A stretch of 64,000 bases of DNA from Candidatus Saccharimonadota bacterium. GTDB taxonomy: Bacteria > Patescibacteriota > Saccharimonadia > Saccharimonadales > Saccharimonadaceae. Position numbers and translations under genes: made by a program. Shown piece after piece: positions 4,718-48,545 of this stretch (position 1 is its first letter; each line of letters begins with the position of its first letter). Under the pieces are notes generated by a model. It was not told where the DNA came from. It saw nothing but the letters and a program-made list of their open reading frames with translations, and did not search any database. The DNA lies in the NCBI GenBank assembly GCA_030531645.1, contig JAUNNB010000001.1, forward strand, positions 1-64,000. Direction: 5' to 3'.

Positions 4718-4819
4718 TACGAATTATTATAGCATATTTATAGAGGTCGCGCAAACTATTTTGTAAAACGGCTCATGCTCTTTATATAAACCTTAGTTTG
4801 TGGTATAATATCACCTATA

Positions 4820-6607
4820 ATGCAAGAAAAAGTAATTCAGATCGCAGGATCTATCACTGTTGATGAGCTAGCACAGGCGCTCGGTCTTTCCGTGACGTCA
4901 CTTGTTGGCGAGCTTTTCAAGCAGGGAATTGTCGCTACAATCAACCAGCGTCTGGATTTTGATACCGCAAGTTTGATTATCGACGAACTCAAAGTTGAGG
5001 GCGTCCGTCTTGAGAAAAAGAATACATCTGTCCAGGTTTCCGAAGTTCATCGCGAACTTTCCGACCACGCAGTTGACCGCCCACCAGTCGTAGCTGTTAT
5101 GGGCCATGTCGACCATGGTAAAACCACTCTTCTCGATACACTTCTCAACAAAAAGACCGTTGAAGGTGAAGCCGGTGGTATTACTCAGCATATTTCCGCC
5201 TACCAGCTTGAACATGATGACCGCCTCATTACTTTCCTCGATACCCCAGGCCACGAAGCCTTTGCTGCTATTCGTCAGCATGGCGCTATGCTCACTGATA
5301 TTGTCGTGATTGTGGTTGCTGCCGATGATGGTGTGAAGCCACAGACTGTTGAGGCTATCAAGTTTGCTCAGTCTGCCAATGCTAAGATTATCGTTGCTAT
5401 CAACAAGATTGACCGTGAAGGCGCAGATATTCCACGCACCATGGCTGACCTCGCTCAGAATGGTCTCACTCCAGAAGAATGGGGCGGTGATATCACTATG
5501 GTCCCAATTTCCGCGAAGCGTGGTGATAACCTCGACAAACTTCTCGATATGATTTTGCTTACCGCTGATCTCGAAGAGCTCAAAGCTGACGTCGATATCC
5601 CATCCGAAGGTCTCGTCATTGAGTCTCATATGGAAACCGGCAAGGGCTCAGTTGTCAATCTCTTGGTCACTGGTGGTGAACTCAAAACTGGTGAATTTAT
5701 CGTTGCCGGTTCTAGCTATGCCAAGATTCGCACCATGGTTGATTTCAAAGGTCGTCCAAAGGGCAAGGCTTTGCCGTCCACTCCTGTCACTGTGACTGGC
5801 TTCAAAGAACTCCCTAACTTTGGTGATAAATTCCTCGAGGTCGCAGACGAAAAAACTGCCCGCAAGATGGCACTTCTAAATGCCAATGCATCTAGCGACG
5901 CTGCCGCTTCTGCTAACGTCACCTCTACCGACCTTCTCCGCATGATGAATGTTGCAGACAATTCCAAGACCTTCAACGTTATTATCAAAGGCGACGTGCT
6001 TGGTTCTGTTACCTCCGTTGTAGATTCTTTGAAACTCATTGATACTCACGGCGAAGTCACACTTAATATCGTTTCTACCGGCGTAGGCGATGTCACCGAA
6101 AACGATGTCTATATGGCCGCTGGCGATAACACTGTCATTTACGGTTTCAATATCAATGTTCCAACCAACATTTCCAAGATGGCTGCTCGCGATGGTGTCA
6201 GTATCCGCAATTACAAAGTGATTTACGAACTTCTAGACGACGCTAAATCTTCTATGGAGGAACTTCTCGATGCTGAAATCGTCGAAGAAGAAGTTGGCGA
6301 AATGAAGATTAAGGGTGTTTTTCGCACCGAGAAAAGTTCTATCATTGCTGGTGGCGAAGTCCTCACTGGCAAGGTTGCTGCAAAACTTGGCGATTCTGAG
6401 GCTAAGGTTATGGGCCGCGTTTATCGCAAGAAAGAACTTATTGGTGAAGTTGAAGTTGAAAGTGTTCAGAAAGAAAAAATGGCCGTTCCAGAACTCGTGG
6501 CTGGTGAAACTGGCGGTATCGCCTTCAATCTTGAAAAACGCCTTGTCATTGAAATCGATGATCGTGTGAAATTCTTCACTCGCGAACTCAAGCGCAAGAA
6601 ACTATAA
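4820..6607 (+). CDS. infB: Translation initiation factor IF-2, short form
   Basis: IF-2 is the GTPase that brings initiator tRNA to the ribosome. The 595-residue protein has one short N-terminal IF2_N-type domain, GHVDHGKTT (about 94-102), DTPGHEAF (G3), NKIDRE (G4), then the beta-barrel and C-terminal tRNA-binding domains. It lacks the long N-terminal extension of E. coli (890 aa) and is shorter than the B. subtilis protein. The TGG-TATAAT box at 4804-4809 ends 10 nt before the ATG, so the leader would be about 3-4 nt and no Shine-Dalgarno is present. Confidence 0.96.
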
Positions 6608-46236: not shown

Positions 46237-46268
46237 AATAACCATACTTTTATGGTATAATTATAGTG

Positions 46269-47687
46269 ATGAAAAACGTTTATATTACAACCGCCATTCC
46301 TTATGTTAATGGCAACCCTCATATTGGTCACGTCGAGGATTATCTTCTCGCCGATATTTCTGCGCGCTACGCTAAATTAAATGGCGCCAGCGTTCGTTTC
46401 CAAGTCGGCACCGACGAGCATGGCAATAAGATTGAGCAGAAAGCTAAATCTCTGAACCGTGATGTCCAGGAGTATGTCGACGAAAACGCCGAAAACTTTA
46501 AAACATTCATTTCTAAGCTCGGCGTCGAATACACAGATTTTATCCGCACTACAGATGCTGATCATATGAAGCGCGTCCAGGAAATCTGGAAGAATCTAAA
46601 AGACCATATTTATCTCAACAAATATGAAGGTTGGTATTGTACCGGTTGTGAACGTTTTATTACTGATAAAGAATGTGAAGAAAACGGTGGTGTTTGTCCA
46701 GACCACCAGGCTAATTACGACCGTCTCGAAGAGTCTAATTATTATCTCCGTATTGCTGATTTTAAAGACGAAATCCGCGCCAAGATTGAAAGCGACGAGA
46801 TGAAGATTCTCCCAGAATCTCGCAAGAAACAGGTTTTGAAGCTCCTAGAAGATACTCCAGATGTGTCTATCTCTCGTCCAAAGACCCACCTTACCTGGGG
46901 TGTCCCAGTTCCTGGTGACGATTCTCAGGTAATGTATGTGTGGATGGACGCCCTCTCTAACTACATTACGGTTTTAGGCTATCCTGACGCTAAAGATTTT
47001 GACGATTTCTGGCCAGCCAGCGTCCAGATTGTTGGCAAAGACATTCTCCGCTTCCATGCGATTATCTGGCCATCTATTCTTCTTGGCCTCGGCTTGCCAC
47101 TTCCGAAGGTTTTGCTTTCTCACGGCTTCATTCTTGCTAATGGCCAAAAGATGAGTAAATCTATTGGCAATGTTGTCGATCCTATCGAAGTCTTGGAGCG
47201 CCACGGTCTCGATGCCACACGCTATTATTTCTCACGTCATATCGATACCTTTGATGACTCAGATTTCACCTGGGAGAAATTTGATAACGCTTATAACAAC
47301 GAGCTCGCTAATGATTTTGGAAACCTCGTCCAGCGTCTTGCGGCTATGAGCAAGAAGAACGAAGTTAAGGGCCAGGAAGCCTTTGAACCAATCTATGATG
47401 GCGAATATAAGAACTTCATGGATAACTACGAATATACTAAGGCTATGGATTATGTCTGGAGCAAAGTCCAGGATGTCAATAAGCATATCGAAGAGACTAA
47501 GCCATGGATGGTAGCTAAAGAAGATCCTGCTACGGCCAAGAAGCTCCTCGAAGATCTCGATAGGGAATTGCTCCAGGTCAACTACCTATTGAAACCATTC
47601 CTCCCAGATGCCACCAGTAAAGTTGAAGACATCTTCGTAACGAGTGATATAATCGAGCCTGGTACGCCGCTATTTCCAAAGAATTAA
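46269..47687 (+). CDS. metG: Methionine-tRNA ligase
   Basis: Class I synthetase for tRNA-Met. The 472-residue protein has the PYVNGNPHIGH motif (HIGH), a zinc-knuckle region with CTGC and CEENGGVC, the KMSKSIGN motif and the anticodon-binding helix bundle. The C-terminal tRNA-binding domain of dimeric MetRS is absent. Start 46269 is preferred to a GTG at 46266 because the TGG-TATAAT box (46256-46261) ends 7 nt before it. A structured RNA element follows the stop. Confidence 0.96.
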   Translation: MKNVYITTAIPYVNGNPHIGHVEDYLLADISARYAKLNGASVRFQVGTDEHGNKIEQKAKSLNRDVQEYVDENAENFKTFISKLGVEYTDFIRTTDADHMKRVQEIWKNLKDHIYLNKYEGWYCTGCERFITDKECEENGGVCPDHQANYDRLEESNYYLRIADFKDEIRAKIESDEMKILPESRKKQVLKLLEDTPDVSISRPKTHLTWGVPVPGDDSQVMYVWMDALSNYITVLGYPDAKDFDDFWPASVQIVGKDILRFHAIIWPSILLGLGLPLPKVLLSHGFILANGQKMSKSIGNVVDPIEVLERHGLDATRYYFSRHIDTFDDSDFTWEKFDNAYNNELANDFGNLVQRLAAMSKKNEVKGQEAFEPIYDGEYKNFMDNYEYTKAMDYVWSKVQDVNKHIEETKPWMVAKEDPATAKKLLEDLDRELLQVNYLLKPFLPDATSKVEDIFVTSDIIEPGTPLFPKN

Positions 47688-47689
47688 AA

Positions 47690-47794
47690 ACAAAAGTAAA
47701 CCCTTCCATAAGCGAGTGTAGACTCGCGCACATACCAAGTAGTTTAGGTTACAGGATGCTTGGTACTCGCATTGGAAGGGTTTGTTTTGTTTTT
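47690..47794. ncRNA. Three-way-junction RNA element with two alternative folds
   Basis: About 100 nt between two convergent genes. The outer stem pairs CCCTTCCA (47701-47708) with TGGAAGGG (47773-47780), extended by flanking A-rich and T-rich runs. Inside are two hairpins: GCGAGT (47712-47717) with ACTCGC (47722-47727), and TACCAAG (47733-47739) with CTTGGTA (47759-47765). A second ACTCGC (47765-47770) can also pair with 47712-47717 and would extend the outer stem instead, so two folds exclude each other. The T-rich right end makes it a terminator for metG; the A-rich left end does the same for the minus strand. It is far more complex than the other terminators here. No known RNA family is recognised. 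Confidence 0.6.
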
Positions 47795-48545
47795 AATCTA
47801 GCTCAATAGAGTTGTGTAATAGATATTCGATAGGAGTATCGCCAGTGTAATCTTTTACTTCGATCTGACCATCTTCAGTCTTCTCAAATGGCACGCTTTC
47901 AACTGGTTCCATTGCGGAGAGCGCACTTGATGTGGTAGCGGTGAAGAGAATTGTATCGGTATAGATACCTGCTGGAATGGCAGTATTAGCTTTAGCACCG
48001 AAGTAAACGGTAGTTTCAGACTTAGCCACAGCTTCGTTCTCCTTGCGCTTAAGGTCGGTAGCTTCGGTCAAGATAGAAGTTGTAGTCGGAACTGCCTGAT
48101 AGGTCTTAGCATCGGTCGAATAACCCCAGTGATTTACAGGGAACTCAGCTGGAGTGGTCTGACCAGTGAGAGAAGAGAATACCTTTGACAATAATACGGT
48201 ATCCTGTGGAGCAGTCTGCTCAGTATCTTCTGCGAAGTAGAGCTTATAGCCATCAGCATTAGTATATACGCGGAGCTTCAATCTAGAAGAGCTAAATGTG
48301 CCCTCTGGAGTTGGAGTGATCTCAAACTGCATTTCATCAGCTTCGATTGCGACTGATAGACTTTGTTCGATATTCACGCTAAAGTTGCTTTTGGTGGAAG
48401 TTTCAGCGTGGGAAGCTCCCGGAGCGAGGAAGGAATTATATGCGAATAAGCCGCCCATGAATGCCAAGGCAAAAATGGACACACTTACATATGCGAGCGC
48501 GAAAGGGCTCTTTTTCCTAACCTGCTTGATAGAAAATTTTTTCAT
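47793..48545 (-). CDS. Secreted or anchored surface protein of unknown function
   Basis: A 250-residue protein with a basic N-terminus, a hydrophobic signal/anchor segment (about 15-40) ending near a possible AxA site (SHAET), and a Thr/Ser/Ala-rich beta-type mature domain without cysteines. No family recognised. The promoter is TTGCGT (48618-48613), 17 bp, TATACT (48595-48590), giving a leader of about 39 nt that holds two direct AGGTCATA repeats 17 bp apart. No convincing Shine-Dalgarno at the normal spacing. Confidence 0.65.
   Translation of the reverse strand: MKKFSIKQVRKKSPFALAYVSVSIFALAFMGGLFAYNSFLAPGASHAETSTKSNFSVNIEQSLSVAIEADEMQFEITPTPEGTFSSSRLKLRVYTNADGYKLYFAEDTEQTAPQDTVLLSKVFSSLTGQTTPAEFPVNHWGYSTDAKTYQAVPTTTSILTEATDLKRKENEAVAKSETTVYFGAKANTAIPAGIYTDTILFTATTSSALSAMEPVESVPFEKTEDGQIEVKDYTGDTPIEYLLHNSIELD

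Follow-up and report, generated by a model that had tools for sequence, protein, structure and literature searches.

A lineage-specific, strongly structured insert in a probable bidirectional terminator between metG and a convergent gene of a Saccharibacteria genome

The 105-nt gap between metG and the convergent gene for a 250-aa protein holds an element which is strongly structured and lineage-specific and which, judging from its sequence, probably serves (probability about 0.7) as a bidirectional intrinsic terminator common to metG (+ strand) and its neighbour (- strand). Folding models give a single dominant fold, and the element is not a switch. Taken alone it is a curiosity, probably an ordinary two-way terminator whose loop is enlarged. 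Its sequence, folds and position, its missing homologues and a promoter-like motif that is rare at such sites were observed directly; termination itself at the element we infer.

The window, i.e. the whole 64,000-nt stretch analysed, corresponds to C6:1-64000 of a 771-kb (0.77-Mb) genome, whose metG has named public relatives in Candidatus Saccharibacteria of ruminant guts and in oral taxon 351. The features are collected in Table 1. The 3' end of metG, for which ATG 46269 is an alternative start, overlaps the left arm of the element, and the stop codon of the 250-aa gene falls within the right arm. A Pfam search with the 250-aa protein gave no family match. The arms form a 26-nt inverted repeat (a stem of approximately 25 bp) enclosing a 64-nt insert with two hairpins, and a T-rich run ends the element on either strand. 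The initial annotation had located the inner hairpin at 47712-47727 and the ACTCGC copies at 47722-47727 and 47765-47770 correctly, and the convergent flanking genes and terminal T-rich runs which it described are both borne out. It also placed the outer stem (47701-47708/47773-47780) rightly, but the 8 bp allotted to this stem are too few, the pairing being between 47683-47708 and 47773-47797.

Table 1. Features of the metG locus and copies of the palindromic family (plain positions refer to the window)
Feature	Position	Strand	Basis or remark
metG (methionyl-tRNA synthetase, 473 aa)	46266..47687	+	ORF; Pfam tRNA-synt_1g E 5.7e-102
Convergent 250-aa protein	47793..48545	-	ORF; hydrophobic N-terminal segment
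Extended -10, promoter-like TGATATAAT	47645..47653	+	TATAAT at 47648-47653
Weak -35-like AAGACA	47626-47631	+	4/6 match
Outer inverted repeat, left arm (A-rich, 3' end ACCCTTCCA)	47683..47708	both	Putative terminator stem
Structured insert in putative terminator loop, 64 nt	47709..47772	both
Inner hairpin 1, GCGAGT-GTAG-ACTCGC	47712..47727	both	Folding
Inner hairpin 2, TACCAAGTA / TGCTTGGTA, 9 bp, 15-nt loop	47733..47765	both	Folding
Second ACTCGC, proposed fold-B partner of 47712-47717	47765..47770	+	Mostly unpaired in favoured fold
Outer inverted repeat, right arm and T-rich tract (TGGAAGGGTTTGTTTTGTTTTTAAT)	47773..47797	both
Intergenic family copies	C2:65784-65862, C6:135140-135218, C7:52141-52219, C7:19024-19102	-, +, +, +
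Second-subfamily in-frame copies	C8:13823-13902, C8:26770-26849, C5:7048-7127, C4:9027-9106	+, +, -, -
Relatives listed with the palindromic family	L126-L154

Several lines of evidence point to termination. The element lies between convergent gene ends, and on both strands a stable stem is followed by a T-rich run, as in a bidirectional terminator. The short loop which is typical, though not strictly defining, of terminators is replaced by a structured loop of 64 nt, and owing to this loop size a simple terminator scan does not call the element. In the approximately 45 metG orthologues that were read, many possess a plain hairpin (A-tract, G+C stem, T-tract) right after the stop codon, for example TAAAAAATAACCCCTTGCGGGGTTATTTTTT. 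These terminators face a convergent gene, often one for an aquaporin, and the arms of the element match them in place and composition. At the convergent junctions of the present genome simple bidirectional terminators are the rule, with branched, A/T-flanked stems at two further junctions (C6:211706-211862 and C2:65734-65906). These figures are approximate, since genes were called as a greedy set of longest ORFs rather than by a trained gene finder, and only A/T-flanked branched cases were counted, since many junctions scored as branched are simply long stretches that contain tRNAs or genes missed by the calls. The structure at C6:211706-211862 is a single-copy bidirectional branched terminator between convergent genes, with two inner hairpins.

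The strength of folding was assessed against shuffled sequences. The whole element reaches -42.1 kcal/mol (z -6.1) on one strand and -38.2 kcal/mol (z -7.1) on the other, and none of 200 shuffles folds as well, which confirms on both strands the three-way-junction fold described previously. The 64-nt insert alone has a z of -3.3 on each strand and was equalled by 1 and 3 of 1000 shuffles, respectively, so that the suggestion of something more than a plain terminator hairpin is upheld. With UUCG in place of the insert the arms still form a terminator hairpin (-27.9 kcal/mol). With an unstructured insert the arms reach -26.1 kcal/mol, versus -48.9 kcal/mol when the insert hairpins are present; these hairpins contribute approximately 21 kcal/mol and span the gap between the arms.

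On this basis the long arms would act as the terminator stem, closed on each strand by the T-rich run, the 64-nt two-hairpin insert having taken the place of the original loop in this lineage. The insert would have entered as one unit, and may have been one of the small palindromic elements which abound in the genus. During transcription its hairpins would form first and bring the arms close together, so that the stem could close over the 64-nt gap. The promoter-like site 30 nt upstream may additionally yield a discrete RNA of about 136 nt.

The initial annotation proposed instead a bistable RNA switch or a regulated terminator, as one GCGAGT is able to pair with either of two copies of ACTCGC. 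Both copies are present; real competition between them is contradicted by the folding energies and the shuffles. Under constrained folding, fold A has an energy of -42.1 kcal/mol (ensemble -43.8) and fold B one of -38.2 kcal/mol (ensemble -40.3), so that a forced pairing of 47712-47717 with 47765-47770 is less favourable by 3.4 (ensemble) to 3.9 (MFE) kcal/mol. The probability of hairpin 1 is approximately 0.98 and that of the fold B pairs approximately 0.016 on the + strand, i.e. about 1.6% of the ensemble, and 0.003 on the - strand. In folds of the growing transcript hairpin 1 appears once nucleotide 47730 has been transcribed, and never opens thereafter. A competing triple of k-mers of this kind was found in 293 of 5000 dinucleotide shuffles (6%) and in 338 of the 4260 105-mers of the window (8%); a fixed hairpin arm has a second copy less often (22/5000 shuffles). 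Folds A and B contain the identical outer stem and T-run, the whole terminator stem being kept in each, and an exchange between them would thus leave termination unaltered. The element also has neither an Rfam riboswitch match nor homologues in the 174 genus genomes searched. On fold energies, the order of co-transcriptional folding and the chance frequency of the triple we reject a bistable switch, and we regard a switch or regulated terminator as very improbable.

Relatives of the element were sought in several ways. The covariance search suggested in the initial annotation covered 174 genomes of the genus and returned no homologue at E <= 0.01, which is one half of the outcome named there as refuting the proposal. 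No second copy of the 64-nt insert was found in the genome itself. Rfam release 15 gave nothing at the gathering score, only sub-threshold chance matches. A lax search of 40 relatives produced one weak match (E 0.015 per genome), a long hairpin of unrelated sequence, which was rejected. In two relatives the metG terminators (L091:7410-7528 and L109:7424-7542) carry G+C-rich structured inserts which are related to each other and to L121:290-395, and which belong to a family different from the window insert.

Alongside the element, surveys of convergent junctions and intergenic repeats revealed a structured repeat present in four copies in this genome, each within a different A/T-rich inverted repeat; the copy at C2:65784 sits between convergent genes. 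Four copies of a second subfamily occur in frame in ORFs of this genome, giving four in-frame and four intergenic copies of the family. The in-frame copies encode the peptide SEETLRRTASNVSEEP... or a variant of it, and their arms are locus-specific and still paired. With its arms the palindromic family is approximately 120 nt long and has a three-way-junction core with hairpin loops GACGG and AACG. Core and arms covary: in a MAFFT alignment of 32 sequences both partners vary in 29 of 44 pairs, and the covariation score is 0.399 as against 0.145 for shuffled and at most 0.174 for slid controls. The family is absent from Rfam. Within the genus, a covariance model of its core found matches in 148 of 174 genomes, with up to at least 27 copies per genome among the limited set of candidates scored. 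With a broader model 109 of 295 genomes were matched, in 14 of the 61 sampled genera of the taxonomic family, and in a class-wide sample all matches among those listed fell within this same taxonomic family.

In relatives the palindromic family is inserted in frame, in either orientation and in several reading frames, into genes whose orthologues in the present genome are without the segment. From their translations we take these host genes to be argS, valS and further class I synthetase genes, mnmA, miaA, tsaD, obg, an iscS-like gene, rarA, a tatD-like gene and others. The mnmA genes of L128 and L147 carry the family at the same site in opposite orientations, which could reflect either inversion through the arms or a tolerated site that was hit twice independently. 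A more distant relative possesses two inserts (L118:11445-11582 and L118:12074-12195), 92% identical and flanked by inverted repeats with unlike arms, which represent yet another family of this general type. Our literature search found nothing joining Saccharibacteria with miniature inverted-repeat elements, and nothing on palindromic coding inserts in Saccharibacteria. In its tiny genomes the genus carries structured palindromic inserts in large numbers and without annotation, located in terminators and in frame in essential genes, and the importance of the window element is as a pointer to this population. Because inserts occupy both kinds of site, an organism with a 0.77-Mb genome allows the joint study of selfish DNA, gene ends and protein insertions, and possibly of new small RNAs.

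The abundance of such inserts bears on the origin of the element itself. Its stem is longer, and its loop far larger, than termination needs, and palindromic mobile elements likewise look like arms with an insert. Insert and arms together may be a copy of a mobile palindromic element, either a singleton or a worn family, that has settled at, or turned into, the metG terminator in the manner of the pneumococcal SPRITE elements. In keeping with this, 1.25 Mb of sequence from the genus holds 62 locus-specific inverted repeats around structured inserts, versus 13 for a Markov control; one family has four copies here within A/T-rich inverted repeats in intergenic positions, with convergent genes on either side of one copy; and in L091 and L109 the metG terminator itself contains an insert from a different family. 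The element also has the architecture of the palindromic family, a three-way junction within locus-specific inverted-repeat arms. It is nevertheless present as a single copy, with no relative elsewhere, and unfiltered searches of the window with the family models R2 and R3 scored only 2.1 and 0.4 bits. On these scores, its single copy and its different loops, it is not classed as a member of the palindromic family, and a mobile origin is a real possibility that we nonetheless consider the less probable outcome.

Compatible with the terminator reading is the production of a discrete small RNA, a suggestion of the initial annotation made plausible by the promoter-like TGATATAAT within the 3' end of metG. 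Starting near 47660 and stopping at approximately 47795 at its own terminator, the predicted transcript (about 136 nt) would comprise the element and little else. The motif lies 40 nt ahead of the metG stop codon and is directed into the element, and downstream of it there is no gene on the same strand which it could serve. TGnTATAAT is the genuine promoter motif of this genome, occurring 320 times, with 182 occurrences no more than 60 nt upstream of gene starts, and with 56 sense copies inside genes compared with 7-14 in codon shuffles. Among the 206 gene ends that face a convergent gene only two possess it, metG being one of the two. It takes up the single ATA among the 30 isoleucine codons of metG, and the insert is, as noted, more structured than its shuffles. 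On the other hand, the motif was spotted post hoc, its -35 is poor, and relatives have neither the promoter motif nor the RNA. The 56 sense copies inside genes also amount to approximately one per 12 kb of coding sequence. A discrete small RNA from this site is a plausible but tentative proposal, less likely than not. Elsewhere in the window, the TGnTATAAT sites at 46256-46261 (metG) and 4804-4809 (a gene near 4820) lie so close to the start codons that these transcripts may be leaderless.

Combining these proposals, the element could encode a noncoding RNA of about 136 nt, specific to this lineage, with its promoter within metG and a structured body derived from a palindromic mobile element which landed in the metG terminator. 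We consider this combination decidedly unlikely; if true, the metG element would stand midway between selfish palindromes, terminators and emerging small RNAs, in a minimal Saccharibacteria genome with relatives that have many palindromic inserts in frame.

Among known systems, the preferred reading places the element with bidirectional intrinsic terminators, with which it shares a G+C-bearing stem, A-tract and T-tract flanks on both strands and a convergent gap of 105 nt; the usual loop of these terminators is 3-8 nt, whereas the element has a 64-nt two-hairpin loop and 26-nt arms. Type I 3'-UTR-derived small RNAs are transcribed from a promoter located in the 3' end of a protein-coding gene and share its terminator. 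The likeness of the element to these consists in a promoter-like extended -10 within the final 45 nt of metG, a structured body and a putative terminator of its own; the comparison is made here at the level of sequence, and the element is not conserved in relatives. The SPRITE repeats of Streptococcus pneumoniae (PMC3049150) resemble it in having, between convergent genes, a long A/T-ended stem that looks like a Rho-independent terminator of excessive size. They form a family with 30 copies reported, whereas the window element occurs once and has a branched interior. The Rickettsia palindromic elements (RPE, Ogata 2000) are described in PMC2229807 and PMC10969869 as palindromes of 100-150 nt found in frame in conserved genes and also in intergenic positions, and reports from Wolbachia and Methanocaldococcus are cited in PMC2229807. 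Unlike RPE, the window element is intergenic and single-copy; the Saccharibacteria family shares with RPE both the in-frame inserts in conserved genes and the intergenic copies.
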